A DNA stretch of 28,279 bases, taken from IMG/VR virus record IMGVR_UViG_3300046516_000900, positions 1-28,279 of that record; one strand, 5' to 3'. This DNA comes from a virus. This document shows positions 8,362 through 28,279 of this stretch, piece by piece. Each line of letters opens with the position of its first letter. Position 1 is the first letter of the stretch. The notes under the pieces are model-generated. The model did no database searches and had not been told where the DNA came from. It worked only from the letters and a program-made list of their open reading frames with translations. Both the position numbers and the translations under genes were made by a program.

Positions 8362-8370
8362 TCGAGCTCC

Positions 8371-9338: not shown

Positions 9339-9340
9339 GA

Positions 9341-9688: not shown

Positions 9689-9711
9689 TTTCTTTCTCCT
9701 AGGAGGATATG

Positions 9712-10242: not shown

Positions 10243-10483
10243 CCGTCTTAGCCTCGTATTCGGCGATCTCGGCGCGCAGCGCGTGAGCTGCGAGTTTCGC
10301 TTCGATCGTACGCGGGATTGAATCGAGCTTCGGATCAGCGTAGAATGAAATGTCCCAGCGACCGGTGCGCGTGAACTTTACGTATGCGGCACGGTGCTCC
10401 TTGTTGGACGGATCAAAGTGCAAGCGGTTCGCGCGTTGCAGGCTACCTGCGAAGACAAACGATGCGTGATCGATGCTGCTCAT
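10223..10483 (-). CDS. Hypothetical protein, 86 aa
   Basis: Not recognised. A small, probably mixed alpha/beta protein with several aromatic and basic residues (RTGRWDISFYADPKL) and a helical C-terminus (AKLAAHALRAEIAEYEAK). I start at the second of two close ATGs (MSSIDH, 10483), because AAGGAG lies seven bases before it and only two bases before the first one at 10489. It sits between dCMP deaminase and the DnaE-like N-half gene and overlaps the latter by 20 bases, so it belongs to the same unit. Confidence 0.7.
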   Translation of the reverse strand: MSSIDHASFVFAGSLQRANRLHFDPSNKEHRAAYVKFTRTGRWDISFYADPKLDSIPRTIEAKLAAHALRAEIAEYEAKTGEHTTV

Positions 10484-10485
10484 AG

Positions 10486-10923: not shown

Positions 10924-10929
10924 TCCATA

Positions 10930-10958
10930 ATTCTAATACATCATGGAACGGAGGTAAA
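10930..10958 (-). promoter_or_regulatory. Promoter TTTACC-N17-TAGAAT for dCMP deaminase
   Basis: TTTACC (10958-10953) and TAGAAT (10935-10930), 17 bases apart on the minus strand. Only six bases separate the -10 box from the ATG at 10923, so the start of transcription should coincide with the start codon. Confidence 0.58.
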
Positions 10959-10960
10959 TT

Positions 10961-11260
10961 TTAGAGCACCGTCGCAAACAGCTGCGCGATGACTTCGGGC
11001 TCAGCCTTATCGAACAACATTTTCTGGTTGGTTTCGATCAGTGAGCCGTCTTCAGCTTCGTAATACCACGTGCCGGCTGGCCAACGCATGCTAAATTTGC
11101 CGCACGGATTTCCTTCTGCGTCTTTGCAGTTGCCTGAAGAGTCGATGCTCATCAGGAGATCATTGTTCAACTTTCGATAGAACGCGGTGTCGGTACCCAG
11201 GTCCATCTGCTGTTGGAAGCGTTTGTCATTGACACGGAGGGTCGTTGCGAAAAGTGACAT
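10961..11260 (-). CDS. Hypothetical protein, 99 aa
   Basis: Not recognised. It looks like a compact beta-rich domain, with WPAGTWYYEAEDGSLIE in the middle and a possible Cys pair (GNCKDAEGNPCG). I start at MSLFATTLRV (11260) rather than eight codons upstream because AAGGAT precedes it at good spacing and the ATG then falls just after the stop of the AlkB-like gene. It is the last gene of the unit from the promoter at 13002-13030; its end abuts the dCMP deaminase promoter with no clear terminator. Confidence 0.7.
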   Translation of the reverse strand: MSLFATTLRVNDKRFQQQMDLGTDTAFYRKLNNDLLMSIDSSGNCKDAEGNPCGKFSMRWPAGTWYYEAEDGSLIETNQKMLFDKAEPEVIAQLFATVL

Positions 11261-11264
11261 TATG

Positions 11265-11840
11265 TTATCCTTTATTGTATCCACGGAAGGTCAAGCTGAT
11301 TCTCTCACCGCACATGAAGCTCGCCTTTGGGATGCGGTGCATGTGCGTGTCTTGCATCCCAGGGTGCATCACGGCGATACTGCCATGCCCCAGGTTGAGA
11401 ACGGTTTTGTCACTCAGATCGCCGATCGGAGCGAACCAGATGTCACGAGCGACCCCGAATGAGACGATGACAATCGGTCGTCCATCGTCCATCTCTGGCG
11501 AGTTGTCTGAGTGCCAACCCAGATGGTCGGATTGGTCTTTGTAGTAGTTGAGGAAAACTACCTCAAACTGTGAGCCGATGAGAGTTTCGACCATACCGCG
11601 AATGCGAAGCATTGCGCCGGTCCACGGTTGTGGTTGGTATGTGCGCGCGAAGTCCTTGGCACCGTAGGTGTACGGCTCATTGAAATCATTCGCGTAGTAC
11701 TCGGAACGCGGAGTCTTATCGATGCGAACCCAATCGAGTGTGGACTTCAGCGTTTCAAAATATTGATCACTTTTGGGGATGCAGCCAGGATAGTAAGTCA
11801 CCGGTATGCAGTCCAGCTCACGCTTGTGGAATATTGTCAT
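11265..11840 (-). CDS. AlkB-like 2-oxoglutarate/Fe(II) dioxygenase
   Basis: Carries the AlkB signature: LNYYKDQSDHLGWHSD (97-112) with iron ligands His110 and Asp112, the third ligand His168 (MHRIP), and Arg180 and Arg186 in GERISLTFR, the RxxxxxR pair that holds 2-oxoglutarate and substrate. AlkB proteins remove alkyl lesions from DNA or RNA bases by oxidation. In this phage it could repair damage, or oxidise a base as part of DNA modification; the sequence does not decide. Length is 191 aa; I start at MTIFHKREL because GGAGAAG lies just before it, rejecting a start 43 codons upstream within the AAA+ gene. It follows the 360-aa ATPase after about 40 bases. Confidence 0.9.
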   Translation of the reverse strand: MTIFHKRELDCIPVTYYPGCIPKSDQYFETLKSTLDWVRIDKTPRSEYYANDFNEPYTYGAKDFARTYQPQPWTGAMLRIRGMVETLIGSQFEVVFLNYYKDQSDHLGWHSDNSPEMDDGRPIVIVSFGVARDIWFAPIGDLSDKTVLNLGHGSIAVMHPGMQDTHMHRIPKASFMCGERISLTFRGYNKG

Positions 11841-11881
11841 TTTCTTCTCCAGAGATGGGAGGCCGGAGCCTCCCTCCTTGC

Positions 11882-12964
11882 TTAGTGGCTGTCGAGCAGC
11901 GAGAACAGTGCGAGGCGCTTCCAATCCGAGACGGACGGATCCTTGCGGATCGAGATGATGTTCATCCATGACCGGAAGTTGATGTTCGACGTCAGATCTT
12001 TGTATTCGTCGAGCAGATTGAGCGCATCGAGCTTCAAGTCATTTTCTACGCCCGGCATCACATCCGCAATGACGTGGCGCATGCGTTCGATACGCTGTGC
12101 GTTTGTCATCGAAACATCCACCTTGTGGCAGCGGGTGCGAACTGCTTCATCAACCTTCCTAATGTTCATGTTCGAGATGAAGATGATCGAACCGGTGAAC
12201 AAGAAAGATGATGGAGCAGAAGAGCGATTTACAGCCGCTGACGAGGTATTCCAGGTGACCCAGCGCTCCTCGTACGTATCAAGTGCTGCTTTAAGCATGA
12301 GCGATGCCGTGCCGTCCTTGAGAACAGAATCGCAATCATCAAAAATGATGATTTTGTCACGGTATGTATAGAGGAATTCATACATACCGGCGGCCGACGT
12401 GTAACCTTTCATCACGACGTAATCACCCGGCTCGAACCGTTCCATCAGAGCGGTGTCGCGAGTATCGAATCGAGCTTCACTGCCTTCTTCCTCTTCCTCA
12501 TCATCGCCGTCTGCGAGAGCAACTTCAGCAATTTTTGCGGCGACCGGCTTCGGAGCTTTTTTCGTGTCGATCTTGCCTGCAGCAGCAAGTTCGCCGAGCA
12601 CCGTGTGGGTCTTACCGACACCACCTTCACCGGTGATCAGAATCGACCGAGCATTCTTGTTGATGACCATCTTGATGAGGTCAGCCAACATTTCGAAGCG
12701 CTCGTTGATGGTGAAAGTCGGACGCTGTGCGACGATGATCGGGCCGACATCATCAGTGGCGAGTTCGATCGAAGGTCCATCCGCTGGCTTGCGGGAGACG
12801 ATTTCCACCTTGGTGATATTGTGCATCCGGACTTTTTGGTTCGCTTGGTCACGAACGAGATATTCCAGATAGTCCAACTTCCCGGACTTGACGAGCGTCT
12901 TGCCGTTGAAGTTGAGGTGGTACTTTTGGGATTCTTCATGCCAGAGAATTTGAGCAGCCAGCAT
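11882..12964 (-). CDS. AAA+ ATPase with acidic insert, 360 aa
   Basis: Walker A is GEGGVGKT (112-119), Walker B IIIFDDCD (205-212), sensor 1 IIFISNM (around 267-273), and AVRTRCHK looks like the arginine-finger region. Between the Walker motifs there is a linker with a run of acidic residues (DGDDEEEEEGSE, 152-163). The N-terminal 85 residues form a small separate domain (NGKTLVKSGKLDYLEYL, VEIVSRKPADG). Similar P-loop ATPases are common hypothetical proteins in T4-like phages; a relation to T4 NrdC.10 is possible but unchecked. Role unknown: perhaps remodelling DNA or protein complexes. It is first in the unit with the AlkB-like gene, behind a strong promoter at 13002-13030; CTGGAG precedes the ATG. 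Confidence 0.85.
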   Translation of the reverse strand: MLAAQILWHEESQKYHLNFNGKTLVKSGKLDYLEYLVRDQANQKVRMHNITKVEIVSRKPADGPSIELATDDVGPIIVAQRPTFTINERFEMLADLIKMVINKNARSILITGEGGVGKTHTVLGELAAAGKIDTKKAPKPVAAKIAEVALADGDDEEEEEGSEARFDTRDTALMERFEPGDYVVMKGYTSAAGMYEFLYTYRDKIIIFDDCDSVLKDGTASLMLKAALDTYEERWVTWNTSSAAVNRSSAPSSFLFTGSIIFISNMNIRKVDEAVRTRCHKVDVSMTNAQRIERMRHVIADVMPGVENDLKLDALNLLDEYKDLTSNINFRSWMNIISIRKDPSVSDWKRLALFSLLDSH

Positions 12965-13897: not shown

Positions 13898-14158
13898 CTA
13901 GTAGAAGTACTCTACTTCAACTTTTTGTTTTTTCAAGCGCTGCTTTTCCTTCTGAAGATTGCGGTGCGCTTCCATTGCCATCTGTGCGTCGCTAAAATAA
14001 CGAAAATCCATCACAAACTCGCTACCACCATAGCCATAACGCATTAGCGGCTTCCAAAACCAGAAGAAACGCTTCACATAAACGCGATACTTTTCATCTT
14101 TACCTTTGACGATTTTGTACGTCGCGTTTGATGCTGAGATAGGAGCGCTGCCTGGCAT
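13898..14158 (-). CDS. Hypothetical protein, 86 aa
   Basis: Not recognised. The N-terminal half is rich in aromatic and basic residues (VYVKRFFWFWKPLMRYGYGG), followed by a long basic helix (MAMEAHRNLQKEKQRLKKQK). The Trp/Phe-rich segment is too short and charged for a clear membrane span. The ATG overlaps the stop of the phosphoesterase gene (TGATG), showing translational coupling. Possible nucleic acid or membrane-surface binding is only suggested by composition. Confidence 0.7.
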   Translation of the reverse strand: MPGSAPISASNATYKIVKGKDEKYRVYVKRFFWFWKPLMRYGYGGSEFVMDFRYFSDAQMAMEAHRNLQKEKQRLKKQKVEVEYFY

Positions 14159-14730
14159 CAGTCATCTCCAGCGTGGTGGTCAAGGAATTCCGGCACGATC
14201 GGCTTCATGTGAGCTTTCACCTGGTTGTATGAGATCGGCTTGTAGTTATGCACGTCTACACCAACGTCTAGAATGCGTCCAACAAATGGATAGCGTAGAT
14301 TGCCATGGCAGTGGCCATGAAGCATAAATGAACCTCTAGCCATTTTATTCCAAGAGATCATTGGGAAGTGACATAGCACCAGCTTCTGTGAATCTCGCTC
14401 CGCGTCAGAATCTTGAACATTAAGCTCATAGTATTCTTTGATCCACTCAAAGCGATCTTGAAGTGATTTGTTTTTCTTGATAACCTGATCATGGTTGCCA
14501 AGAATGAGGTAAATTTTACCATTGAGCTGGTCAAGAACTTCTTGGGCTTCAGTGACACCCATGAAGAAGGCATCACCAAGGTGATATACTTCATCGGTGG
14601 GTTTTACTGTCTCATTCCAGTTTTTGATGAGCATCTGGTTCATGTGATGCTTATCTTCGAACGGCCTGTTTGAATATTTGATCACATTGTTGTGCCCCCA
14701 ATGTGTATCACTCGTAAAGAATTTTGTCAT
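14158..14730 (-). CDS. Calcineurin-like metallophosphoesterase, 190 aa
   Basis: All motifs of the two-metal phosphoesterase fold are present in order: SDTHWGH (Asp8, His10), HLGD (50-53), GNHD (78-81), CHFP and HGHCHGN. These residues bind two metals and cleave phosphomono- or diesters. Substrate could be nucleotides, cyclic nucleotides, RNA or phosphoprotein. Small stand-alone members are common in T4-like phages. The ATG overlaps the stop of the VWA protein gene (ATGA), tying it to the MoxR/VWA module. No signal peptide, so it acts in the cytoplasm. Confidence 0.92.
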   Translation of the reverse strand: MTKFFTSDTHWGHNNVIKYSNRPFEDKHHMNQMLIKNWNETVKPTDEVYHLGDAFFMGVTEAQEVLDQLNGKIYLILGNHDQVIKKNKSLQDRFEWIKEYYELNVQDSDAERDSQKLVLCHFPMISWNKMARGSFMLHGHCHGNLRYPFVGRILDVGVDVHNYKPISYNQVKAHMKPIVPEFLDHHAGDD

Positions 14731-16085
14731 TTTGATGATTGAAATATGACGTTTTTGATCAGCATATGTCGTGAAGCTGAGTGGATAAACGTCTTCTTGT
14801 TATGGTCTGTCAGCAGCCAAAGCCAACGCTTCGGGTGCATGGGTTCTACTTTATTGCCGTCGCCGTCGGTAATGACGATGACGATGTCTGGGTAGGATTT
14901 GTATTTCTCTTTGAATGGACCTTGCAGCTCAGCTTCCATGATGTCAAATGCCGTGCCGCCGCCGACTCGATAGTTTTTGCCTTTGGTGGTGATGTTTTGA
15001 AGCGTCGTATCGAATAGATAGAACTCACAATCAAAATATTCTTGCTCATCACGGAAGGCTTGGATAATGTCATAAAATTTGCTGAGCTGTGAAAGGCAGG
15101 AGCCTGACACATCCATAAAAACTGCACCATGGAGCTTATCTTTGCGCTTCACGGTTTGCACAGTTCGGCCAGGGAGAATCACGCCAGGGTGAGCTGCCAT
15201 CACCTCCGAGAAGCGACGATCTTCACGTCGAAAAGACTCTTCAATCTTTTCTTTCTCTTTGAGCTTGGTTCGCTTTACACCTTCAATGATTTTCCGGAAG
15301 TCAACTTTTGGTGGCTTCTTTTGCTCTAGAATCACATCAAACATTCCGCTGCTAGTTCCACCGCCATTCAGCACGCATTCTTCATTTGCACCGCCAGCTT
15401 TAAGCATATCAGCGAGGTCACCAGCGTCCATTTCTTTTGCAAGTGCGCCAGCTGCTCGATCACGAGCTTCTTCGGCATCGTCATCGCCGCCACCGCCAGA
15501 CCCGTCTCCGCCTTCGTTCCCGGCTTCTCCATCTGATTGATCACCTGGTGCATCACCATGCTCATCGACCGTTTGCTTATCGTCCGACTTGCTCGAACCA
15601 TCTGCGTTTTTCTCGGCGACAAGCAGAGCCAGATAGTACAAGAAAGACTGATTGCGTTTTACTCCCGACGGTTCTTTGAAGCAAGTATCGATCCAACAGA
15701 ATCGCTGCCAGTTTTCGATCTCATTGCGATCGAATCCAAAGAGATCGATGATCATCTCATTGATCGTAATGTCCTGCGCGACGTTAACGAGACGAGGAGT
15801 CGCACCACGAATGTGTTGACCATTACGTTTGAAGTGATCAAGAAGCACGTGCAAACATTCGTGAAGAATCACGAATTGCTGCATCCGAAGTGAAAGTGCG
15901 CACCAGAAAGCTTGGTTCAGCAGCAAAATTGGAGGTGAATTCTTCACGAATTGAACCGCCGCCGTCGGCAGCTCATCAGTGAAGTGCACGCTTGACATCT
16001 GCCAAAAGGTGTAGAAAACCTTGTGGTAATCTTCTAGCGTGCTTCCGATCGCAACTAGTGTTTCATTCGGAACCGGCGTTCTCAT
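14727..16085 (-). CDS. Metallopeptidase-like / VWA-domain protein (DUF2201 type)
   Basis: The N-terminal domain has an HExxH zinc motif (HECLH, 75-79) and a downstream VAQDITINEMI segment typical of the putative metallopeptidase part of this family. A Gly/Asp-rich linker (about 165-210) connects to a von Willebrand A domain with the metal-ion site DVSGS (325-329) and a later ITDGDG. Proteins of this design partner with MoxR ATPases, as here: the gene overlaps the MoxR stop by four bases. In bacteria such pairs assemble or activate protein complexes. Phage target unknown. 452 aa, no signal peptide. Confidence 0.88.
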   Translation of the reverse strand: MRTPVPNETLVAIGSTLEDYHKVFYTFWQMSSVHFTDELPTAAVQFVKNSPPILLLNQAFWCALSLRMQQFVILHECLHVLLDHFKRNGQHIRGATPRLVNVAQDITINEMIIDLFGFDRNEIENWQRFCWIDTCFKEPSGVKRNQSFLYYLALLVAEKNADGSSKSDDKQTVDEHGDAPGDQSDGEAGNEGGDGSGGGGDDDAEEARDRAAGALAKEMDAGDLADMLKAGGANEECVLNGGGTSSGMFDVILEQKKPPKVDFRKIIEGVKRTKLKEKEKIEESFRREDRRFSEVMAAHPGVILPGRTVQTVKRKDKLHGAVFMDVSGSCLSQLSKFYDIIQAFRDEQEYFDCEFYLFDTTLQNITTKGKNYRVGGGTAFDIMEAELQGPFKEKYKSYPDIVIVITDGDGNKVEPMHPKRWLWLLTDHNKKTFIHSASRHMLIKNVIFQSSK

Positions 16086-17458
16086 ACATAAGCCTGTGAA
16101 GTATCAGTCCGGCTGTTGACCATATCTACCAAAGATGGATTTGACATGCCGTGAGCTGGCTCCATGGCTCGATCATACTTCCCTTGAATGTGTTGATATT
16201 GCTTGGAAGTCCAAGCATCACCACGATGATGCATCTTCACGAGAACTTGCACGATTTGTTGGAAATTCGTCGGTCGATTTCCAACTCGTCCAGCCATCCC
16301 CCACATCAAACGGTCAATTGTATCTTGACGGCATGAGATCAGAATGTCCGCGAATCGATTTGCGAGCTTCCGCACCATGTGAGGTTTCGTCTGGTGCATC
16401 TTCATGATTTCAGTCTCGAATGTATTTCCATTCGACATGAGCACTCGAAAATCCATTTCATTGATCCGCGAGCCACAGCCTGCATCAGCTTTTTCATCCG
16501 GGAGACTATTAACGATCTCATCGAATGACTTAACGGTGATGATTTTGGCAGCTTTCGACTTTGTCGCTTGCACCGCTTCAACAAATGGTGCAATGATTTC
16601 CTGCGGTAGCTCACCCTTAAACTTGGTGAAGAAATCAGTCGCAGCTTGATCCTTCTTTTTCACAAGATCAAGTAGCTTCGTGACGTTGTTACCGTTCGAA
16701 AGGATCGCTTTTGCAGCTTCGAGATCATTGGCTTGCGCCAGAGCGTCCTTAAACGGAAGCGTTTTGATCGAATCGCGTAGCTCTTTGATGTTGATTGTTC
16801 CCTTCGATTCAACAACGTCTTCCATGCGGCCGCCATCCAAGTGAGCTTGAATGAGATATTCCAGACGACGTGGAGAGATTTTAGCTTGCGCATCAGCCGG
16901 GAGCGCGTTCCACCAGTCGATGAAATAGATCGCGATTTGCGGATACTTGAGACGAAGGTACGCTTCATCCAGCTTGTACGGGACTTTGATGTAGCAATGA
17001 AACCGGTCGATAAGCGCCGGATCGAGTTCCTCAACTTGGTAAGTGCCAGAGTCATCATATGGGTTGATTGCGCCCCAGACACACTTGAGATTATTCAACT
17101 TGTGTCCGTTGATGCTGCCGAACTGGATGAGCTCCATGACAGCATCGAGCGTTTTTGAATTTGCACGGTTGAGCTCATCGAAGAAAATCGCTTCATAGAC
17201 ATCATCTTCGATATACCACGGACGAATGAGATCGGTGACCGCTTTACGTCCGCCGTCACGCTCAACCACCTTTGGCATTCCGACGAGATCAACCCATGGA
17301 TCCATCGTCGGAGTGCTGAAATACTTCCACTTCAATCCAAGCCCATTGAACACCTGGTTGATCGTCGCAGTTTTACCTACACCACGATGACCCTCGAAGA
17401 GAACATTGCGACCAGTCTTGGCATAATGCTCTAACATCGGGATGTTCAACAAGGACAT
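16082..17458 (-). CDS. MoxR-family AAA+ ATPase, 458 aa
   Basis: Walker A is GHRGVGKT (23-30) and Walker B IFFDELNRAN (91-100); the DELNRA form and the ALIDRFHCYIKVPY segment are typical of MoxR/RavA ATPases. The C-terminal 200 residues are longer than usual, with helical segments. MoxR proteins act as chaperones together with VWA-domain proteins, and the VWA gene follows with a four-base overlap. I start at MSLLNIPMLEHY because AAGGAGAGG lies seven bases before it; a start nine codons upstream would overlap the previous gene. Its target in phage growth is unknown. Confidence 0.9.
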   Translation of the reverse strand: MSLLNIPMLEHYAKTGRNVLFEGHRGVGKTATINQVFNGLGLKWKYFSTPTMDPWVDLVGMPKVVERDGGRKAVTDLIRPWYIEDDVYEAIFFDELNRANSKTLDAVMELIQFGSINGHKLNNLKCVWGAINPYDDSGTYQVEELDPALIDRFHCYIKVPYKLDEAYLRLKYPQIAIYFIDWWNALPADAQAKISPRRLEYLIQAHLDGGRMEDVVESKGTINIKELRDSIKTLPFKDALAQANDLEAAKAILSNGNNVTKLLDLVKKKDQAATDFFTKFKGELPQEIIAPFVEAVQATKSKAAKIITVKSFDEIVNSLPDEKADAGCGSRINEMDFRVLMSNGNTFETEIMKMHQTKPHMVRKLANRFADILISCRQDTIDRLMWGMAGRVGNRPTNFQQIVQVLVKMHHRGDAWTSKQYQHIQGKYDRAMEPAHGMSNPSLVDMVNSRTDTSQAYV

Positions 17459-17459
17459 G

Positions 17460-17909
17460 TTAACCTCTCCTTCGGTTTGCGCCACTCTTGACGCTAGTTT
17501 TCATATCTTCCTCCGACATCAGGATCAGTGGACCCTTATTGTAAGCCGGAGCAAGACGATTCATTTTGAGCTTTGCCTCATCAGCTGCGGCTGCTTCACG
17601 CTGCCTCAAGGCCTCTATCTGATCACGATCCAGGTGCAAATGCTCTGGGACCATTTTTCTTTGTTTCAGTGCAACCGCACCGGTAGCTCCTGTGTCTACG
17701 CTGTTTACTTTCTCGTGTCCACCACGATGTAGTTCCATGTTAAGACGAGCTGTTTTCATCGACTCTGCCCAGAAGTTCTTTTCCTGGGTTATCGGACCAG
17801 TTTTGGTAAGCTTACGGATATTGTTCTTTGCACCATTTTGATGCCGTGCCTTCCATTCTTCATACTCTTTCTGCTCCTTAGCAGTCAGAGTCTTACGAAC
17901 ATGCAGCAT
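17460..17909 (-). CDS. Basic hypothetical protein, 149 aa
   Basis: Not recognised. Highly charged and helical, rich in Lys, Arg and Glu, with no hydrophobic core of note: TAKEQKEYEEWKARHQNG at the start and LRQREAAAADEAKLKMNRL later, ending in NRRRG. It looks largely disordered or RNA/DNA-binding. It is the first gene of the MoxR/VWA unit behind the promoter at 17951-17979, with GGAG before the ATG, and ends two bases before the MoxR start. An adaptor role for the MoxR complex is possible but only suggested by position. Confidence 0.78.
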   Translation of the reverse strand: MLHVRKTLTAKEQKEYEEWKARHQNGAKNNIRKLTKTGPITQEKNFWAESMKTARLNMELHRGGHEKVNSVDTGATGAVALKQRKMVPEHLHLDRDQIEALRQREAAAADEAKLKMNRLAPAYNKGPLILMSEEDMKTSVKSGANRRRG

Positions 17910-18995: not shown

Positions 18996-20147
18996 TTAGA
19001 AGTCCAAGAGGTTGTCTTCGTTGACGGAGGTATCCAACGCGTTGATCGCGTAGTCTGTAAGATCCTTTTCTTGCGGAGCAGTTTGATTGCTTTCTGCGTC
19101 CAACCAGCTCGAGAGCCAGCTAAAAGGATTGTCCTTGTGCTGATATCGCTCTTTCAAGCCGAGCGATTTCAAACGCTTATTTGCAATGTGCTCGAGATAC
19201 TGAGCAAGCAGTGTTTCATTCAGGCCGATGATTGAGCCATCCTTGAAGAGGTAGGTTGCCCATTCCTTTTCTTGGTTGACAACTTCATCAAAAATCGCGT
19301 AGATTTCATCTTCAATTTCATTGAAGATGGAGATCATCTCATCATCACCTTCACGACGAAGATAATTGCGAATGATATTCAGTGGAATGCCAACGTGCTG
19401 TGATTCATCCTTAGCGATGAATTTAATGATGTCGGCGTTACCGATCATCTTCCCCTGCTGACCAAAGGCAAAGCTGCAGGCGAATGAAACGTAAAAGCGA
19501 ATCGACTCGAGGGCGTAAATTGAAATTAGTGCGAGCAGCAGCTTCTTCTTTAGTTCACGCTTGGTGAGGTTATACGTCTTGCGATCGATGTCACAACCAT
19601 CTTCGGCGGTAGCAACTTCATGGTAGCCAGGACCGAGAGCCTTGTACAGATTTCCGTAGTTAATGAAATCATCATAGTAGCGAACGATCGCAGCTGCACG
19701 CTGAACAATATTGCTATCTTTCAGGATCGAGTCAAAGACTTCCGACGGATCGTTGTACAGATTTTGGAGAATCCACTGATATGACTGAGCGTGAATGTTT
19801 TCGAAGGCCGCCCACCAAATAACACAGCCTTCAAGTTCCGGCAGCGAAATCCATGGAATAAGTGCAACGAGAGGGGCGCGCTCTTGAACCGAATCGAGCA
19901 GCACTTGATAAGCGATATTCTTTGTGAAGATGTGACGTTCATGCTCTTGCATCATCTTGAAATCCGCATCATCCTTGGTCAGGTTGATTTCTTCCGGATC
20001 CCAATAGAACGACTTCATCGTTCGTTTGATCTTGTCAAAGATAGGGTACTTCATTCTGTCATAACGTGCGATGCCAGCTTCTTCGCCAAAGAACATTGGC
20101 TGATCTTTCACGTCGAACAAATTCAGATTCAAAACAGTGTGAGACAT
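18996..20147 (-). CDS. nrdB: Ribonucleoside-diphosphate reductase, small (beta) subunit
   Basis: Class Ia R2 protein that carries the diiron centre and tyrosyl radical. Ligand motifs are DADFKM near the start, ENIHAQSYQWIL with Glu, His and the radical-bearing Tyr, and IAKDESQHVGIPLN with the Glu/His pair of the second helix. FACSFAFGQQGKMIGNADII is the typical helix before it. The C-terminus (NEDNLLDF) is the acidic tail that docks on NrdA. 383 aa, the usual length. I start at MSHTVLNLN, which begins directly ahead of the conserved region; 16 extra upstream codons would be possible. The ribosome binding site is weak. Confidence 0.96.
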   Translation of the reverse strand: MSHTVLNLNLFDVKDQPMFFGEEAGIARYDRMKYPIFDKIKRTMKSFYWDPEEINLTKDDADFKMMQEHERHIFTKNIAYQVLLDSVQERAPLVALIPWISLPELEGCVIWWAAFENIHAQSYQWILQNLYNDPSEVFDSILKDSNIVQRAAAIVRYYDDFINYGNLYKALGPGYHEVATAEDGCDIDRKTYNLTKRELKKKLLLALISIYALESIRFYVSFACSFAFGQQGKMIGNADIIKFIAKDESQHVGIPLNIIRNYLRREGDDEMISIFNEIEDEIYAIFDEVVNQEKEWATYLFKDGSIIGLNETLLAQYLEHIANKRLKSLGLKERYQHKDNPFSWLSSWLDAESNQTAPQEKDLTDYAINALDTSVNEDNLLDF

Positions 20148-20221
20148 GTATTTCTTTACTCTATGAGACAGCGGTAGGAATTGATACTTTATCATTCCTA
20201 GCCACCATTGGATATTTTTCT

Positions 20222-20479: not shown

Positions 20480-22864
20480 TCAAATCTTGCATGCGCCTCC
20501 TGCGCAACCATCTTCACCGTCATCTTCTTCCAGGTCTGGTTTTGCTTCCTCAGCAACCTCACCCTTCTTTTCATCTTCGGTGTTGTCCTTTTCACCCTTA
20601 GTATTGACGTAGTAACGAGTCTTCACGCCGTATTTCGCTGCCAGGAACGTGTGGTTCATCAGCACTTCTAGCGGAATCTTGCGGTCCTTTGTCGGATCTT
20701 CACTGCGATAGTGATCACGATTGTATGAGAAGTTGGTCGAGATAGATTGGCACGTGAACTTCTGGAAAATTGCGACGTTCTTGATGTAACCATCATAGTC
20801 CTTCGCCGTCATATCCCAGAGGTAGTCATACTTCGACTTGAGCTTCACCGCATCCGGAGCAACCTGAACCATCGTCACCTTCTTGTTACCCTTACGAGTA
20901 ACGAGCTGGCGGAGCGGTTCAATACCGTTTGTAGCATTCGAAACGACAGATGAACTTTCCGACGGCATCAACGCGAGCAAAGTCGAATTGTAAACGCCAT
21001 AGAGGTTGACTTGTTCACGAATCCACTTCCAATCACACTCATAAGCTTGCTTGGTAATTTCATCAACCGCCTTGCAGTACGAGTCGATTAGCAAACCGCC
21101 CTTCGAGTAGATCGTGTCTTCCAAGCCAGGAATCGCGCCGTGTTCTTTTGCAAGTTCAACCGAAGCTTTCAACGCGTAGTAATGCATTTGTTCAGCAAGA
21201 CGGTGAGTCATGTCGAACGTGCGTTGGTCATTGTATTTTTGACCGTTCTTCGCAATTAGGTATGCGTAGTTGATAACGCCAATGCCAAGAGGTCGATACT
21301 TCATTGTCGCCATACGCGCTTGCGGAATCATGTAATCCTGGTAGTCCAGAATTTCATTCAGCAAGTTAACGAGAATCCACATACGACGTTCCATGTCGCT
21401 GTGATCATCAAGATTCAAGTTACCAACGTTAATCGCGGCGAGCGTGCAAAGTTGAACGAGGCCTTCATATGTTACAGTACCGGTGCCATCACCATTATCA
21501 GTCATCACATTGCGAACTGGCTCGGTCGGCAAGCAGATTTCCACACAAAGATTCGACATCGTCACCGGTTTCAGGAACGGTGAGTGCGTATTGACGTGGT
21601 CAGCATTGAAGCCGTAGATACGACCGGTTTCTTGTGATTGCTTGTGGAACGTGTCCAGAATATCGCGAGCATTGACTTGAACGCGGAACTTCAGCGTTTC
21701 ATCTTTCTCGTACTTTTCGTAAAGCGATTCAAACAGTGAACGATCACGACCGAAGAATGCCTTGTAAAGATCCGGCACTTCATGCGGTGAGAACAACGTC
21801 ATCATTTGCTTGTTACGAGCGCGACGAAGCAAGAACATGTCCCACTGCATTGCGTAATCAAGGCGGCGGACGGTCTTCTCATGTGTTTTGCGATTGTCCT
21901 TCAACGTCATGATCTGTTCAGCTTCGGCGTGCCAGATTGGAGCATACAGAGTAACCGATGCATCACGAATGCCACCCTGCGAACGAGATTTCACCGTACT
22001 TTCAAATTGACGATAGAACGGAGTTACACCAGTGTGGACGATTTCACCTTTACCAACCTTCGATCCGAGCGGACGAAGCTTACCACCATTGATACCGAGG
22101 CCAGCGCGTTTTGCTGCGTAGCGACCCATGACCTTCGATGCATCATCGATAGAATCCAGATCATCACCAACGTCAATTAGAACGCAAGATGAGAACTGCT
22201 TGATTGATGTGCGGAGCCCGGCGAGAATCGGCGTCGGTAGCGAGATCTTGAACGTCGACAGCATGTCATACGTTTCACGGATCAGTTGGAGACGTTGTTT
22301 CTTCGGGCGGTTGCGAAACGCAACTACCGGAATCAACATGAACATCACCTGCGGAGTTTCAAAATACGTTTTTGAGGAGCGGTCCTGAACCAGATACTTG
22401 TCACGAATCTGTTTGACAGCTGCGCCAGAAAGGTTATAATCACGATCATGCTTGATGTAAGCACCAAGCTTCAACCATTCATCATCCGTGTACCAATCAA
22501 GCAGCTTTGCGTCATAGACGCCACGTTCCACGTTTTTCTTCACTACTTCGATCAGACGTTCTGGTTCAAACGTGCCAAAAACACGCTTGCGCAGGTCGGT
22601 GATCAGAAGACGTGCGAGGACTCGCGAATAGTTAGGATGATCTTCCGAGATCAAATCCTCACATGACGAGGCCGTCATGTCTTCGAGGGTCTGAGTTGGA
22701 ATGCCGTCATAGACCTGCGGATCGGTCTTCATGGCAATGTCGCTGACTGACACGCCGAGGATACCTTCACATGCGTTTTGCAGCGAGGCATGAATCTTTT
22801 CTACATCATAATTTTCGAAAGTACCGTCGCGCTTGGTGACTCTCTTTACTTCTTTGATGCTCAT
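20480..22864 (-). CDS. nrdA: Ribonucleoside-diphosphate reductase, large (alpha) subunit
   Basis: Class Ia R1 protein making deoxynucleotides from ribonucleoside diphosphates. The N-terminus is an ATP-cone (VTKRDGTFENYDVEKIHASL), the allosteric activity site. SNLCVEICLPTEP holds the thiyl-radical Cys, and MPSESSSVVSNATNGIEPLR is the conserved loop near the active site. The C-terminus GCAGGACKI has the Cys pair that accepts electrons from thioredoxin, which this phage encodes at 13056. An acidic segment (EEDDGEDG) precedes it. 794 aa, slightly longer than T4 NrdA (754). No ribosome binding site is strong (GAGAG, nine bases upstream). A terminator hairpin at 22909-22941 separates it from the methyltransferase gene. 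Confidence 0.97.
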   Translation of the reverse strand: MSIKEVKRVTKRDGTFENYDVEKIHASLQNACEGILGVSVSDIAMKTDPQVYDGIPTQTLEDMTASSCEDLISEDHPNYSRVLARLLITDLRKRVFGTFEPERLIEVVKKNVERGVYDAKLLDWYTDDEWLKLGAYIKHDRDYNLSGAAVKQIRDKYLVQDRSSKTYFETPQVMFMLIPVVAFRNRPKKQRLQLIRETYDMLSTFKISLPTPILAGLRTSIKQFSSCVLIDVGDDLDSIDDASKVMGRYAAKRAGLGINGGKLRPLGSKVGKGEIVHTGVTPFYRQFESTVKSRSQGGIRDASVTLYAPIWHAEAEQIMTLKDNRKTHEKTVRRLDYAMQWDMFLLRRARNKQMMTLFSPHEVPDLYKAFFGRDRSLFESLYEKYEKDETLKFRVQVNARDILDTFHKQSQETGRIYGFNADHVNTHSPFLKPVTMSNLCVEICLPTEPVRNVMTDNGDGTGTVTYEGLVQLCTLAAINVGNLNLDDHSDMERRMWILVNLLNEILDYQDYMIPQARMATMKYRPLGIGVINYAYLIAKNGQKYNDQRTFDMTHRLAEQMHYYALKASVELAKEHGAIPGLEDTIYSKGGLLIDSYCKAVDEITKQAYECDWKWIREQVNLYGVYNSTLLALMPSESSSVVSNATNGIEPLRQLVTRKGNKKVTMVQVAPDAVKLKSKYDYLWDMTAKDYDGYIKNVAIFQKFTCQSISTNFSYNRDHYRSEDPTKDRKIPLEVLMNHTFLAAKYGVKTRYYVNTKGEKDNTEDEKKGEVAEEAKPDLEEDDGEDGCAGGACKI

Positions 22865-23092: not shown

Positions 23093-24310
23093 TTAGAAGT
23101 TGAACAGCTTCGACTCCTTGGTATCGGTTCGCTCTTTGATGTTGCTTTGCATCAAGAATTTTGCGTCAGTGAGAGTGCGTTCGCCATTCAAATATCCCAT
23201 GACTTCTCTAACCATATCTCCACCAGTGCAAACCGGAACATTTTGGCAAACGTGATTCAAATTGCCAGTCACCAGCTCAAAGTCGTGTGGGAGAGCCATC
23301 AGGTGCATACATTCACGTGGTGTCAAGATGCGATTTTCGACCGGATGAATAGAATCCAACTTACGGCCAATCATCGCCGAAAAGTCACCGTCTGGGCGAT
23401 AAAGTGACATGCTGCCATCCCAAATACCGCCGCCTGACTCAATTTTGGCTTTGATGCGGTCGATTTCACGAATCTGACGGTCCATGCCCTGAGTCACGAA
23501 GTATGCGCGGGCCTCGTTCCATTGCTCGGTGACGAACATATAACGAATCAGAGTCATCGTGTCAAGCTGGCGGTCAACCAAAACTTGGCGCATGTGCTTC
23601 AAGCCGTCGCCATTGTATTTGTGCTGTAGGAATTGCATGTATGGATTCGAGTACAGCGTATCATGCGCCGCCTGCAAGTCTTCCTTGGTATGGCCGCTTA
23701 CGCCCTCAGGAACCTCTGCCAGGTAATCAGCGAGATTTTTACGATCGCGCTTGTAGTAATGCATTTCTGGTGCCGCGCTATCACGCCAGAAGAAATAGAA
23801 AGTGCGCTTGCGATTTTGCGGAATACCGTGATAGATCGAATCGGTGTGATAGAGAGACAGGGAGTATCCGTTCTTTTCAGCAACATCCTGAAAGAATTCC
23901 TTGATCTCTTGACCGCGATTCGTGTACAGCGTCGGCGCATTTTCACCCCAGAAAACCTTTGGGCGAAGCGTTCCAAGAACATACTTGGAGGTTTCTAGCA
24001 TCCACTTGTTTTGAGTGGCGCGCTGTTCGGCACTACCGCTTGACAGCATTGACAAACCTGCGCATGGGCAAACCGCTGAGATAAAGTCCATGTCTTTGTA
24101 CTTATTCTCATCATACCCTTGAGCGGCATGATCGTCATCAATATTGAAGTGCGGAGTATTTGGGAAGTTGGCCTTGACGTTCTTTTCGTTTTCACCAAAC
24201 GGAACGTAAGAGAAAAGCACTTCTGGCGGTACGCCAGTTACTTGTTCACCTGCGACGGTGAGGCCACCGATGAGAGGGACAATGGTGCCCCAACGAAGAT
24301 TCTTGGTCAT
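23093..24310 (-). CDS. C5-cytosine DNA methyltransferase-like protein, 405 aa
   Basis: Motifs of the C5-methyltransferase family appear in order: motif IV CPCAGLS with the catalytic Cys (PC, usually PPCQGFS), motif VI GENAPTLY (ENV in the family), motif VIII GIPQNRKRTF (QxRxR), and motif IX LTPRECMHLMALPHDF. Motif X is changed (QNVPVCTGGDMV instead of GNAVP). Motif I is also altered: VPLIGGLTVAGEQ in place of DLFAGIGG. A long segment of about 150 residues before motif IX would hold the target recognition region. It may methylate cytosine, or with changed motifs act on a modified pyrimidine. No ribosome binding site is seen before the ATG. It follows the HTH gene across an inverted-repeat element. 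Confidence 0.85.
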   Translation of the reverse strand: MTKNLRWGTIVPLIGGLTVAGEQVTGVPPEVLFSYVPFGENEKNVKANFPNTPHFNIDDDHAAQGYDENKYKDMDFISAVCPCAGLSMLSSGSAEQRATQNKWMLETSKYVLGTLRPKVFWGENAPTLYTNRGQEIKEFFQDVAEKNGYSLSLYHTDSIYHGIPQNRKRTFYFFWRDSAAPEMHYYKRDRKNLADYLAEVPEGVSGHTKEDLQAAHDTLYSNPYMQFLQHKYNGDGLKHMRQVLVDRQLDTMTLIRYMFVTEQWNEARAYFVTQGMDRQIREIDRIKAKIESGGGIWDGSMSLYRPDGDFSAMIGRKLDSIHPVENRILTPRECMHLMALPHDFELVTGNLNHVCQNVPVCTGGDMVREVMGYLNGERTLTDAKFLMQSNIKERTDTKESKLFNF

Positions 24311-24334: not shown

Positions 24335-24366
24335 AAAGCCTAAGATAGTTAACTATCTTAGGCTTT
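24335..24366. terminator. Perfect 32-bp palindrome, probable bidirectional terminator
   Basis: Two 16-base arms meet at GTTAAC with no unpaired spacer, flanked by A/T runs; on the minus strand TTTTTAC follows, so it can terminate the HTH transcript. A protein-binding role is an alternative. Confidence 0.7.
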
Positions 24367-24428: not shown

Positions 24429-24959
24429 TTATCTGAGCGCTTCGACTTGCGATCGAATTTGCGAGGCCTGAGCGATCGCAGTCGCGTTGTTGCGAATCAC
24501 TTGATCCAATAGCGCAATCAATCCGTCTCGGTCCGCTTTCGACATCAGTTCGAGATTTTCGGCTACAACCGTAACAGACGCTTGCATCAAAGTGAATGTT
24601 TGCGGAAGAGTTTCGTTGATCGCGAGACCTGGATGTGGGTGAGGGTGGGCAGCCTTGGCCGGAGCCGATTTCTTCTTGAAGCTGGCCGATAGGTTGAGAA
24701 GATCTTCATGGGTCCAGCCGCGAGCTTCAGCAAATTCTAGAAGCTTCTGGCGATACTTAGGACCTGGACGAGCCATGTTGCTTTGCGTGCCGTTCACGTT
24801 ATCACGCGAGAACGGCTTTTCCCAGGAGTATATGGAAGCGGCAGGAATTCCGGAAGCTTCTGCCATGGCAGCTACCGTGTTGAAGCCACACTGCTTGCGG
24901 AATTCTTTGAGTTCCAGGTGGAACGTCGGGCTGTTATGAATCGGCTTGCTAAGGTCCAT
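24429..24959 (-). CDS. Helix-turn-helix DNA-binding protein, 176 aa
   Basis: The N-terminal 80 residues resemble an XRE-type domain: LKEFRKQCGFNTVAAMAEAS, GIPAASIYSWEK as the likely recognition helix, and a long insert (SRDNVNGTQSNMARPGPKY) before a final helix. A His/Pro/Ala linker (AHPHPHPG) follows at about residues 98-110. The C-terminal 65 residues form helices (TLMQASVTVVAENLELM, LIALLDQVI) that likely dimerise. It is probably a transcription regulator, perhaps of itself or of the methyltransferase gene, which lies across a palindrome-rich region. GGAG precedes the ATG; a promoter lies at 24990-25018. Confidence 0.78.
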   Translation of the reverse strand: MDLSKPIHNSPTFHLELKEFRKQCGFNTVAAMAEASGIPAASIYSWEKPFSRDNVNGTQSNMARPGPKYRQKLLEFAEARGWTHEDLLNLSASFKKKSAPAKAAHPHPHPGLAINETLPQTFTLMQASVTVVAENLELMSKADRDGLIALLDQVIRNNATAIAQASQIRSQVEALR

Positions 24960-25040: not shown

Positions 25041-25427
25041 TCAAAAATCGTGGTTGCGCTGATTTTCCTTGTTTGTCAGGTCATGAACGACCATGATCAA
25101 GTTTACATCAGGATGCTCTGACTTGATGATCGCAGCTTGGACTTCATCATCTTCAAAGTGGCAACGAACGTTAAAGCCAATCGACTTCAACTTTGCGATC
25201 TGCGCTGCTTTATGATGACCCGACGATTCACGCGTCTTTGCTTCATACGGCAGCGGATTGAAGTGAACCTCATTCGATATGCCACGGTTTTTCAACATCT
25301 CCATCGTTTCACTGGTTTCTTGAAACGAGCGGCCTGTGATGATGTGATCACGTGGGCCAGGGTGAACGCCTCGGCATTCTTTATTGATGAAGATGACTCC
25401 ATCGATGTCAAACGTATTGATGTCCAT
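25041..25427 (-). CDS. HAD-like phosphatase, small, 128 aa
   Basis: FDIDGVIF (6-13) is the HAD motif I with the nucleophile Asp and the second Asp; HIITGRS (28-34) is motif II; CHFEDDEVQ (about 89-97) provides the acidic motif IV. Only about 130 residues are present, so it has little or no cap domain. Members of this size dephosphorylate small molecules or the ends of DNA or RNA. The ATG overlaps the stop of the glycosyltransferase gene (TAATG), so the two are coupled. In this setting it might process a sugar phosphate or a base-linked phosphate, but that is inference. Confidence 0.78.
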   Translation of the reverse strand: MDINTFDIDGVIFINKECRGVHPGPRDHIITGRSFQETSETMEMLKNRGISNEVHFNPLPYEAKTRESSGHHKAAQIAKLKSIGFNVRCHFEDDEVQAAIIKSEHPDVNLIMVVHDLTNKENQRNHDF

Positions 25428-26713
25428 TATTCGAAGGCAAGTAAGCTATTGATCGATACAACTTTCTTATCTTTGTATCGATCAAGAGTAGTGTTAAGGG
25501 TGTCATGCAATTCGGCGAGGCGAGCATCGCGAGAGTGTCTACGTATGACTTCTGTTTGAATTTCCTGTCGAGCTGTCATGCTGTCGATGCGTGGATCTTG
25601 AATCACTTCATCCAGGACCACGCCAAAATCTTTACTGCGCTTCAACAGCGCTTGAACAAAGTAATCCTTTCCAAGAGTGTCGAAGCATGCGTGGTGTATA
25701 GTTCCATCGCGAAGCGTCTTACAGAAGACGATTGATGGGATTCCGTACGTGCCAGCTTCTAGCGGCGCGACTGGCGACGACTCCACGGGGCACGTAACAA
25801 ATAACCCGCGCGCTTTCGAAAGGTCTCTGAGTAGCTCCACGCGAGGAGCATTACAATGAAAGGTAACGCCAGCCAGTTTGGGATTCCCGAGATGAGGTTT
25901 GATTTGCTCATTATAGTAGTCGTAGTCTTCAAGTTCGCCGCCAAAAGCAATATAGACCTTAACCTTTGGAGGATTGTCCATGAAAGTCATCCCCTCGAGG
26001 AGCTTTCCGATGTTTTTGTCCTTCTCAGGCCGACCAATCACCATGAAATAGTCATCCGGAGATACAATTTTTGGTGCATCCGCGTTGATCGCAGTAGAGT
26101 AGCAGACGTTGTCGAAGATCTTGTCAATTTCATCCGCTGACTTAATGAACGCAAAGTGTTCACTACCCGTGGCGTAACGACGATGAATCAACTTTCTCCA
26201 CAAGTTCCGCTGGTGTTTAGACACACAAACCAATGTGCTACCGTTCAACGTCATGTCGCGATAGCCTTGAAGTTTCGCGAACATGCTCATATCACCGGCG
26301 GTCTCCGGCGTGTTATGAATCACGCACAGCACAGGAATCGTGGCGGATAGCTCGGCGCAAAGCTTGACGTGGGAGCTGGAGAAACTATGATTGATGATCG
26401 CGGCTGGTTCTAGCCGTTTGATCGTAGCCCGGATTTCTGCTGTCTTCTTCTTATTAAGACGGCCCTTTTCAACCTTGTCGATTTCACCTTCTGATTCATA
26501 ACTTTCTTCTGAACCAGACTGCAGCTTGACGATCTTGATCTCTGGATAGTGTGGAAAAATCGCATCATCCGAATCGGCCGTTGTCAAGAAAAGAACTTCA
26601 TGGCCGAGCTCATAAAGAAGCTCCGCGTGAAGCCGTTCTACCGTTTGAATGCCGCCACCAAGCTTTCCAGCGATGTGGCGTTTTTCCATTTGACAGAGAA
26701 CCAAAACCTTCAT
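25427..26713 (-). CDS. GT-B glycosyltransferase (GT4-like), 428 aa
   Basis: The N-terminal GT-B half has KLGGGIQTVERLHAELLYEL (17-36), with the usual Gly-rich loop of family 4. The C-terminal half has GRPEKDKNIGKLLEG (227-241) and ESSPVAPLEAGTYGIPSIVF (311-330), the E-x7-E type donor-binding motif. It should transfer a sugar from a nucleotide sugar to an acceptor. The gene lies directly after a DNA base-modification family gene, so glycosylation of a modified base in phage DNA is an attractive idea; a cell-surface or other target is also possible. GGAG precedes the ATG, just inside the end of the preceding gene. Confidence 0.88.
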   Translation of the reverse strand: MKVLVLCQMEKRHIAGKLGGGIQTVERLHAELLYELGHEVLFLTTADSDDAIFPHYPEIKIVKLQSGSEESYESEGEIDKVEKGRLNKKKTAEIRATIKRLEPAAIINHSFSSSHVKLCAELSATIPVLCVIHNTPETAGDMSMFAKLQGYRDMTLNGSTLVCVSKHQRNLWRKLIHRRYATGSEHFAFIKSADEIDKIFDNVCYSTAINADAPKIVSPDDYFMVIGRPEKDKNIGKLLEGMTFMDNPPKVKVYIAFGGELEDYDYYNEQIKPHLGNPKLAGVTFHCNAPRVELLRDLSKARGLFVTCPVESSPVAPLEAGTYGIPSIVFCKTLRDGTIHHACFDTLGKDYFVQALLKRSKDFGVVLDEVIQDPRIDSMTARQEIQTEVIRRHSRDARLAELHDTLNTTLDRYKDKKVVSINSLLAFE

Positions 26714-26714
26714 G

Positions 26715-27761
26715 TTAAAACTCCAGAAGTCCTGCGGCTTTTTGAGCAGCTGCCTTTTCTCGATCCTTGGCAGCTTCCTTTTTCTTTTCTTTGTTGACTT
26801 CGAGCTTGCGAGCGTTGATCAACTCAGGTTTTTCGAGGAATCGTTGGTAGACTCCAAACTGACAGCATGTAATTTCACAACCGAATGACGTAAGGTAGTC
26901 AACATGCTGTGTAGGTTTTAGATGCTGTGATAGTGCCTTACGATCAATATCCTCATGATTGAATATTATATCTTGATTATCGCGCATGTAAAGGAGTATT
27001 TGCATGTCGCTCACTTTATCTTTCTTCTGATTCGGATAAAGCTTTTCGATAGTTTTATGAGCGCCAGGACCAGCGATCACAAAATCTTCATTCTCATTCA
27101 TTGAGATATCGTAACAGCGCGCCAAGTTCGAGTTCGCGTGATAGCCGTAGTAGTTACCAATGCCACGATAGCTGGTCAGCTGCTTAAACGCTTGCTCCAT
27201 CGTCGGACGGCCGGCATAAAAATCGATCAATCCGTCTTTCTTAAATGACGCGATCCATTCGATCATGTTTGCCCAGTCTGTCTCACCTACAGCTCCACCA
27301 CAATATTCTCTTGCGGCAGTCTGTAGTGACGTGCGAAGCTCGGTGGTACCCCACTGCTCTTTCTTCTCATCACGAGCGCGTTGCAAATTTTCACGAATCC
27401 ATTCTTGATAATCTTTGTCGTCAGGCAGACGCTCAAAGTCAATCAGGTTCTGTGTTGAAAATTCTGTCTCATTGATGGCATTCAGAATTGCTTGAGCTGG
27501 ACCGTAGAACTTGACCGCAAAAGCGTTCAGAATTTTGTTAGTGAAAGATACTTCTTCCTTGAAGATGTATTTCATTAGCCAATCAACTTCGCCGTGACGA
27601 GTACGATTCGGGTGCCAATACATGACGTCAATTTGCAATGCGTCATTTGGTGGAACGTATTCTTCTTTGCGGCCTTCCGAAATCAATACTTCACGCTTAT
27701 TGATTTCTTTAAGGAAGAACCGAAGTTCTTCCAACACGGTCTTGTCAAACTTGTCAATCAT
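26715..27761 (-). CDS. Alpha-glutamyl/putrescinyl-thymine pyrophosphorylase / 5-hmdU kinase helical-domain family protein
   Basis: Residues 193-245 contain LTSYRGIGNYYGYHANSNLA, then DFVIAGPGAHKTIEKLYP, the helix-hairpin-helix-like and FVVAGPGA-type signature of the family described by Aravind's group in phages with hypermodified thymine. Such proteins are related to DNA glycosylases and act on 5-hydroxymethyluracil derivatives in DNA. There is no P-loop here, so it is not the kinase form. Residues 40-92 (MYWHPNRTRH, KFYGPAQAILNAI) also fit the helical domain. The C-terminus is a charged Lys/Glu/Ala tail. The ATG overlaps the upstream ATPase stop (TGATG). Exact clade and reaction cannot be fixed by eye. 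Confidence 0.75.
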   Translation of the reverse strand: MIDKFDKTVLEELRFFLKEINKREVLISEGRKEEYVPPNDALQIDVMYWHPNRTRHGEVDWLMKYIFKEEVSFTNKILNAFAVKFYGPAQAILNAINETEFSTQNLIDFERLPDDKDYQEWIRENLQRARDEKKEQWGTTELRTSLQTAAREYCGGAVGETDWANMIEWIASFKKDGLIDFYAGRPTMEQAFKQLTSYRGIGNYYGYHANSNLARCYDISMNENEDFVIAGPGAHKTIEKLYPNQKKDKVSDMQILLYMRDNQDIIFNHEDIDRKALSQHLKPTQHVDYLTSFGCEITCCQFGVYQRFLEKPELINARKLEVNKEKKKEAAKDREKAAAQKAAGLLEF

Positions 27762-28279
27762 CAGACGAATCCAATTTTTCTTTGTTGTGGTTGTCGAGCT
27801 ACATGATCTTCCGGTTCAAAAATCTCAGCAAGCGTGTATTCTTCACGCTCTTGAAGCTTGTGACTAATACCAGCCACAGCCGCAAGATTTTTAGCTTCAT
27901 CAGCGGTAAGCTTACGAAAATCCAGCACATCATGACAGCGACCTGGGCGCATGAGCGCTTGATCGATGCTATCATATTTAGTGAGGTTAGCGCTAAAGAC
28001 GATTTTCTTAGATGAATGTTTGATCAACCCATCAGAAATGTTCAAGATGCGTGACATAAGCTTGTTGCCGTGATCTTCTCGGCTGGTGATCAGCAAATCT
28101 GCATCTTCGATTACCAATATGTCTTGCTCATCATTCATCAGGAAGTTGATGAAGAAGTCATCCATTTGAAGAATCTGTTCATCAAAGGTCAGAACCGCTG
28201 TGAGCTTATTGTCATAAATCATCTGACGCGTGAATGACGTCTTACCGGTTCCAGGCGGTCCAAGAAGCAACAGGATACT
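27761..28279 (-). CDS. AAA+ ATPase (C-terminal part, start beyond window)
   Basis: Reading on the minus strand from the right edge, the frame is open and already within a P-loop: LLGPPGTGKTS is the Walker A. ILVIEDADLLI is Walker B, IVFSANLTKYDSIDQAL contains sensor 1, and ALMRPGRCHDVLDFRKL contains the arginine-finger RPGR of classical AAA proteins. The N-terminal part lies outside the window. The apparent start at 28270 is a TTG inside the ATPase domain and is not the true start. This type of ATPase remodels protein or nucleoprotein complexes. It is coupled by overlap to the base-modification gene, which suggests a link but does not prove one. Confidence 0.88.
   Translation of the reverse strand, partial: SILLLLGPPGTGKTSFTRQMIYDNKLTAVLTFDEQILQMDDFFINFLMNDEQDILVIEDADLLITSREDHGNKLMSRILNISDGLIKHSSKKIVFSANLTKYDSIDQALMRPGRCHDVLDFRKLTADEAKNLAAVAGISHKLQEREEYTLAEIFEPEDHVARQPQQRKIGFV

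Follow-up and report, generated by a model that had tools for sequence, protein, structure and literature searches.

A candidate 5-hydroxymethylcytosine hypermodification operon in a viral genome fragment and its linkage to putative inositol genes

Which DNA base does a four-gene viral operon modify, and what does it attach to that base? The question is raised by IMGVR_UViG_3300046516_000900, a 28,279-bp giant-phage fragment from IMG/VR (here called the window). On its minus strand, genes for an AAA+ ATPase, a PF18723-family protein, a GT-B glycosyltransferase and a HAD phosphatase follow one another in that order. A reading made from the sequence alone (the sequence-only reading) had proposed that these genes hypermodify a base derived from 5-hydroxymethyldeoxyuridine (5-hmdU). 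We found that homologous operons carry a myo-inositol-1-phosphate synthase (MIPS) next to the HAD phosphatase and a hydroxymethylase of the dCMP type. On balance we favor, with some reserve, the view that the operon hypermodifies 5-hydroxymethylcytosine (hmC) with inositol. For phages, hypermodified DNA is a main protection from restriction enzymes, and it is also a source of new nucleic acid chemistry.

The operon and its collinear relative

We confirmed all four open reading frames, and their overlapping or nearly adjacent ends and their families are as the sequence-only reading had described. The HAD and glycosyltransferase genes overlap by 1 nt, a 1-nt gap separates the glycosyltransferase gene from the PF18723 gene, and the PF18723 and AAA genes overlap by 1 nt.

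27761-28279, minus strand: AAA+ ATPase (PF00004, E 1.3e-11), C-terminal 172 amino acids (aa), truncated at its 5' end where the window stops
26715-27761, minus strand: PF18723 (HMUDK_hel) protein, 348 aa, without a P-loop, predicted HhH DNA-glycosylase-like fold
25427-26713, minus strand: GT4-type retaining GT-B glycosyltransferase, 428 aa, E-x7-E motif at E311/E319
25041-25427, minus strand: small HAD phosphatase (128 aa) predicted to act on inositol-1-phosphate

We scanned IMG/VR with MIPS, PF18723 and HAD and analyzed 217 loci in 147 non-redundant groups, the closest relatives among the matches listed. The gene arrangement is kept in other phages far beyond chance. This supports the earlier claim of a base hypermodification operon to which the glycosyltransferase and the phosphatase belong, and we consider it very probable that the operon serves DNA hypermodification. 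The AAA gene, which had been counted as a fourth member, occurs in only 3 of 142 MIPS contig groups. It is a lineage-specific neighbor of the module and no core part of it. As a candidate for a core member or for the missing kinase, it was ruled out by its AAA+ family and its rarity in homologous operons.

A protein search recovered a 360,227-bp relative, IMGVR_UViG_3300009709_000002 (L002/G001 in the coordinates below), that is collinear with the whole window at ~73-83% nucleotide identity (about 78% over the window). The PF18723 proteins of the two are 90% identical, and the AAA protein is 376 aa long in the relative. There the operon extends upstream of the AAA gene, and two thymidylate-synthase-family genes lie elsewhere in the genome.

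L002:8301-8804: homologue of a gene of Caulobacter phage Cr30, upstream of the AAA gene
L002:6382-7665: MIPS (PF01658, over cut-off)
L002:4397-5515: SGNH-like protein, upstream of the AAA gene
31023-31904 of the relative: ThyA
G001 57101-58036: second thymidylate-synthase-family protein, of the dCMP hydroxymethylase type

The hydroxymethylase points to cytosine

A 5-hmdU-derived base calls for a dUMP hydroxymethylase elsewhere in the genome. We found that a hydroxymethylase is present in the relative but that it is of the dCMP type; the relative holds ThyA and this protein and no dUMP hydroxymethylase. The best PDB matches of the protein are the MilA CMP hydroxymethylase and the T4 dCMP hydroxymethylase. 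It keeps the catalytic Cys and has an Asp (the T4 D179 position) where ThyA has the dUMP-selecting Asn.

The homologous loci include three classes, marked by this PF18723 subfamily, by ADDT (PF18724) or by 7-deazaguanine genes, and among the groups analyzed no contig group holds more than one of these. The hydroxymethylase specificity residue is Asp in 51 of 54 proteins across the analyzed contigs. It is Asp in all 49 proteins from PF18723 contigs and Asn in both proteins from ADDT contigs (Fisher p 8e-4, with only two ADDT-class cases behind it); the unclassified contigs have one Asn and two Asp. The Asp-type hydroxymethylase of the PF18723 class argues for hmC, not 5-hmdU, and judged from these residues, hmC is likely the base acted on.

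The alternative is thymidine hypermodification as in ViI and M6, in which a dUMP hydroxymethylase and a 5-hmdU kinase act before glycosylation. PF18723 is indeed named for 5-hmdU kinases, and relatives of it occur in two phages, Kuttervirus PM10 and Vibrio phage K471; in the latter, the PF18723 protein lies beside ADDT and the thymidylate-synthase-family protein is of the Asn type. The assignment of the window protein to this family stands for the helical domain (Pfam E 1.6e-16; score 61 bits, cut-off 25; aligned to profile positions 134-273 of 281), but the protein has no P-loop kinase domain. None of 95 proteins of the subfamily has a Walker A motif, nor does the window protein. Searches of the window and the relative for the P-loop kinase and TET families characteristic of the ADDT class gave no match, nor did PF18724 in the relative or the ADDT profile in the window. 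Of 24 ADDT-class groups, 19 have a P-loop kinase of their own and 17 a TET/JBP oxygenase, and neither occurs in the PF18723 class. Given also the 49 Asp-type proteins and the dCMP-type enzyme of the relative, we regard the 5-hmdU explanation as very improbable. The kinase/ADDT route was rejected on the absence of a P-loop, the type of hydroxymethylase and the mutual exclusivity of the classes.

The dCMP deaminase that the sequence-only reading had reported is real, and its family occurs in 48 PF18723-class contig groups:

10486-10923, minus strand: dCMP deaminase (PF00383, E 5.2e-23)

A MazG/PRA-PH protein also recurs with the class. The protein of this type in the relative matches the module-linked family (HMM E 3e-25), and its role as a dCTPase is only putative.

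A MIPS-HAD pair accompanies three modification classes

Of 50,697 phage records, 18 have a MIPS homologue, and these same 18 and no others have a HAD homologue; they are Stenotrophomonas phages and Caulobacter phage Cr30. The two genes are adjacent in Stenotrophomonas phage Moby, in Cr30 and in contig L030. In IMG/VR, 124 of 142 MIPS groups have HAD, always on the same strand (124/124) and with a median gap of -3 bp. The HAD and PF18723 genes likewise adjoin (median gap -7 bp, same strand in 94/94).

The PF18723 subfamily is present in 106 groups, 103 of which have MIPS; the other three are the cut window and two Aeromonas phage records (31 and 44RR). Among the 41 groups selected by PF18723 alone, MIPS is found in 40, the SGNH-like protein in 39 and HAD in 34, and the one group without MIPS is Aeromonas phage 44RR. 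Well-flanked PF18723 loci (n = 45) carry MIPS (44), SGNH (44), HAD (42), hydroxymethylase (27), a C5-methyltransferase homologue (26) and GT4 (4). The commonest gene orders are SGNH-MIPS-HAD-PF18723 and hydroxymethylase-MIPS-HAD-PF18723-SGNH-C5-methyltransferase. A PF18723 scan of bacterial genome contigs gave three loci among the matches listed, one of which (L255) has hydroxymethylase, deaminase, MIPS, HAD, PF18723, SGNH and C5-methyltransferase genes in a row; these loci probably stem from phages whose DNA ended up in binned or metagenome assemblies.

The same pair accompanies the other two classes. In Moby, MIPS-HAD lies inside a FolE-QueC-TGT-QueE (7-deazaguanine) cluster. In Cr30, it lies beside ADDT (PF18724 E 1e-52) and a TAGT-like glycosyltransferase, and L030 and L031 have the same arrangement. 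The three classes interleave in the MIPS tree; for the PF18723 class, well-supported branches require 14 or more changes. The tree was thinned within classes, which inflates mixing relative to shuffles, and only forced-change counts were used. The tree shows repeated swapping of MIPS among three modification chemistries.

MIPS matches the mycothiol INO1 type (TIGR03450 E 5e-62, below its cut-off; PDB 1gr0 E 6e-55). This raises the possibility that MIPS and HAD make a soluble or lipid inositol compound, such as a mycothiol-like thiol, an osmolyte or an inositol lipid. GT4 and HAD would then resemble MshA and its phosphatase, and the base modification genes would share their early operon but serve another function. 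A GT4 enzyme together with a phosphatase does mirror mycothiol biosynthesis. The pair, however, accompanies three mutually exclusive DNA modification classes, and MIPS is nearly constant in the PF18723-selected groups. GT4 homologues occur in a minority of groups (about 10, in a loose cluster), so most of these systems have no MshA-like step. We consider the soluble-compound explanation unlikely. Going by this gene linkage, inositol is instead the better-placed candidate for the substituent on hmC.

An FkbM-type methyltransferase recurs near the module (for example, L137:8782-9498) in 34 PF18723-class groups, but neither the window nor G001 has it. Its possible role is to decorate the substituent further.

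The PF18723 protein and its SGNH-like partner

The AlphaFold2 model of the PF18723 protein has a pLDDT of 87.9. Alignment of PF18723 with ADDT using hhalign gave a weak match (E 8e-4, probability 25%), which suggests a remote relationship between the two. We predict from the model that the PF18723 protein is a base-flipping transferase or a recognition subunit. Sequence searches of the PDB with the PF18723 protein, the glycosyltransferase and HAD gave no useful match.

The SGNH-like protein has an invariant G171-D172-S173-H174 (GDSH), a GxID motif with G223 and D226, and a C-terminal His (H342). Its AlphaFold2 model matches SGNH esterases (E 1.3e-4, probability 1.0). At three loci (L301, L283 and L323, ~7900-12500), the protein occurs without MIPS or PF18723, and the genes after it encode other helical proteins and one that resembles a PLP enzyme (read by eye). 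These loci are possibly a further, amino-acid-based modification class. Since the protein is found outside MIPS and PF18723 and beside other helical proteins, it is not specific to inositol and seems to be a general partner of base modification.

An Acb1-type anti-CBASS phosphodiesterase gene (L002:3937-4422; PF23474 E 6e-25) lies immediately upstream of the SGNH gene in the relative, and an Acb3 homologue is encoded in Cr30 at L027:18858-19658.

The phosphatase and the glycosyltransferase

The Pfam match of HAD is weak (0.01), and motifs I to IV are complete (D7/D9, T31, K73 and E92-D93-D94) and nearly invariant across 124 homologues. The phosphatase had been thought to trim a base-borne sugar. 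It is more simply the partner of the inositol phosphate synthase encoded just outside the window.

Both halves of the window glycosyltransferase align with GT4 models below the curated cut-offs (PF13439 E 1.7e-5; PF00534 E 4e-4), and the E-x7-E motif is intact (ESSPVAPLE). Homologues in the same cluster are found in L180, L181 and L195, and the ADDT class has looser relatives. There are no relatives in the 50,697 phage records, and a scan of viral contigs recovered only the already known relative among the matches listed. As the central transferase of the core, the enzyme was ruled out by its presence in few homologous operons. Its occurrence in few PF18723-class systems, together with the looser ADDT-class relatives, leads us to infer that a shared moiety is a more likely acceptor for it than the base.

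In a simpler scheme, GT4 would work like the T4 and RB69 enzymes and attach its hexose or pentose to hmC without an intermediate, with PF18723, SGNH and HAD in supporting roles. A dCMP hydroxymethylase with a glycosyltransferase is the T4 scheme, and Aeromonas Tulanevirus Aes012, which has a dCMP-type hydroxymethylase, encodes UDP-galactopyranose mutase, another protein and an SGNH-like protein side by side (L028:5740-9014). Yet GT4 is missing from most homologous operons, in which MIPS, HAD, PF18723 and SGNH are near constant, and the window enzyme matches GT4 models only and no T4-type alpha or beta hmC glucosyltransferase model. Plain glycosylation of hmC is improbable to about the same degree as a soluble inositol product.

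Aeromonas phages lack the synthase and carry a symporter

Aeromonas phages 31 and 44RR2.8t have no MIPS or HAD match. Their SGNH and PF18723 parts are fused into one 795-aa protein, and an SGLT-type sodium symporter (vSGLT E 9e-104) is encoded directly upstream of the fusion. The SGLT family includes sodium/myo-inositol carriers. Imported free inositol would stand in for exactly the two missing steps, MIPS and HAD. The MIPS-HAD pair and its replacement by a symporter in these phages together point to free inositol as the metabolite used. Both phages have genes 42 and 56 and no known glucosyltransferase, and the further modification of their hmC was stated to be unknown in 2010 (PMC2993671).

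Proposed pathway and its implications

In the pathway we propose, the phage dCMP hydroxymethylase would form hm-dCMP, which would be phosphorylated to hm-dCTP and polymerized. The MazG/PRA-PH pyrophosphatase and the dCMP deaminase would drain dCTP and dCMP, as in T4. MIPS would convert glucose-6-phosphate to inositol phosphate, and HAD would strip the phosphate. The PF18723 protein would then flip hmC from the duplex, and together with the SGNH-like protein it would join inositol to the hydroxymethyl group. In this lineage, GT4 would add a sugar, most simply on the inositol. The attachment chemistry, the identity of the transferase and the GT4 acceptor are more weakly inferred than the rest.

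Several observations weigh against this pathway. In the cytosine class we found no kinase that would activate hmC. The genes for the hydroxymethylase, MIPS and SGNH lie beyond the window and are known only from the collinear relative. The second PDB match of MIPS is 6k96, a five-membered cyclitol phosphate synthase, and the MIPS product could be another cyclitol phosphate than myo-inositol phosphate. The top PDB neighbor of the PF18723 model, the 5-PmdU glycinyltransferase PUGT (8z2n), is weak (E 0.37, TM about 0.35), as are the OGG1/AlkA-type DNA glycosylases that come next. The SGNH-like protein occurs without MIPS or PF18723 in 22 of 70 SGNH-selected groups, and the Aeromonas symporter could carry another sugar.

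A broader model is tentative, and we put it at slightly under an even chance. According to this model, MIPS-HAD is a portable inositol cassette that serves three base-specific attachment modules and so links inositol covalently to a modified base in phage DNA, whether cytosine, thymine or 7-deazaguanine. The C5-methyltransferase homologue of the cytosine class may have hmC itself as its substrate instead of methylating cytosine. Its gene is kept next to that of a hydroxymethylase whose activity should leave hardly any cytosine unmodified, and C5-methyltransferases act on hmC in vitro. The C5-methyltransferase homologues of cyanophages S-TIM5 and S-TIM54 are not within such a module.

The gene set is widespread and apparently undescribed, in line with the earlier suggestion of a new combination; in searchable papers we found nothing linking inositol with phage DNA modification, and an earlier description may exist. 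Inositol, a sugar-like ring that is not a known DNA substituent, is an isomer of glucose. Bases that bear it would therefore weigh the same as glucosylated bases and may have been taken for them. This equality of mass between inositol and hexose is a concrete reason for care in mass spectrometry assignments. Should the proposal hold, cyclitols would form a new class of DNA substituent, with one small cassette serving three bases. It would also give a specific answer to how Aeromonas phages such as 44RR further modify hmC, a question open in 2010 (PMC2993671). The genes are present in cultured phages, namely, Aeromonas phages 31 and 44RR, Caulobacter phage Cr30 and Stenotrophomonas phage Moby.

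Neighboring genes in the window

The C5-methyltransferase homologue of the window, which the sequence-only reading had not mentioned, is in the same conserved neighborhood, just downstream of the operon beyond an HTH-like gene and a hairpin.

24429-24959, minus strand: small HTH-like protein, 3' of HAD (PF13560, E 0.06 only), a possible regulator of uncertain membership
24335-24366, minus strand: strong terminator-like hairpin with a 14-bp stem and a T-rich tail, from a consensus scan
23093-24310, minus strand: C5-cytosine-methyltransferase homologue (PF00145, E 4.6e-22) with CPCAGLS and GENAP motifs
20480-22864, minus strand: ribonucleotide reductase large subunit (PF02867, E 8e-111), precursor supply, context only
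18996-20195, minus strand: ribonucleotide reductase small subunit (PF00268, E 7e-52), context only

The hairpin is the likely end of a transcript running from AAA to the HTH-like gene; the scan found 8 terminator-like sites against 5.2 expected in shuffles and is suggestive only. Elsewhere in the window are an AlkB-type 2OG-Fe(II) oxygenase (11265-11969; PF13532 E 1e-16) and, at 14158-17485, a MoxR-like AAA ATPase (AAA_3), after which come a metallopeptidase-like/VWA protein (DUF2201_N) and a calcineurin-type phosphoesterase. An RlaP-like RNA repair nucleotidyltransferase (PF10127, phrog_388) is encoded at 955-1968 and has a homologue in Cr30.

Comparison with known systems

The T4 hmC pathway (gp42, gp56 and glucosyltransferases) shares with this system a dCMP-type hydroxymethylase, a dCMP deaminase, a pyrophosphatase that is here a putative dCTPase and, as proposed, later decoration of hmC. 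It differs in its glucosyltransferases; we found none of the T4 type here, and the decoration genes are MIPS, HAD, PF18723 and SGNH, with GT4 added in this lineage. Phage RB69 makes arabinosyl-hmC with a phage-encoded sugar supply route that includes a protein with a PNK-phosphatase-like domain (PMC8056088). By this description, hmC and a phage-encoded supply route with a phosphatase would be common to both systems, whereas the supply genes and transferases differ.

Thymidine hypermodification in ViI, M6 and PaMx11 involves the same PF18723 family, and the predicted HhH-glycosylase-like fold has PUGT (8z2n, weak score) as its nearest solved structure. Unlike those phages, this system has no P-loop kinase or ADDT, has a cytosine-type hydroxymethylase and carries a predicted inositol synthase in the operon. 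Mycothiol biosynthesis (Ino1, MshA and a phosphatase) resembles it in the INO1-like MIPS, the GT4 enzyme and the phosphatase. In contrast, the genes here are linked to base modification genes, the phosphatase is a small HAD protein, and the operon shows no other mycothiol gene. Aeromonas phages 31 and 44RR2.8t (Biquartavirus) share the SGNH and PF18723 proteins, fused there, and the hmC genes 42 and 56, but have an SGLT-type symporter upstream in place of adjoining MIPS and HAD.

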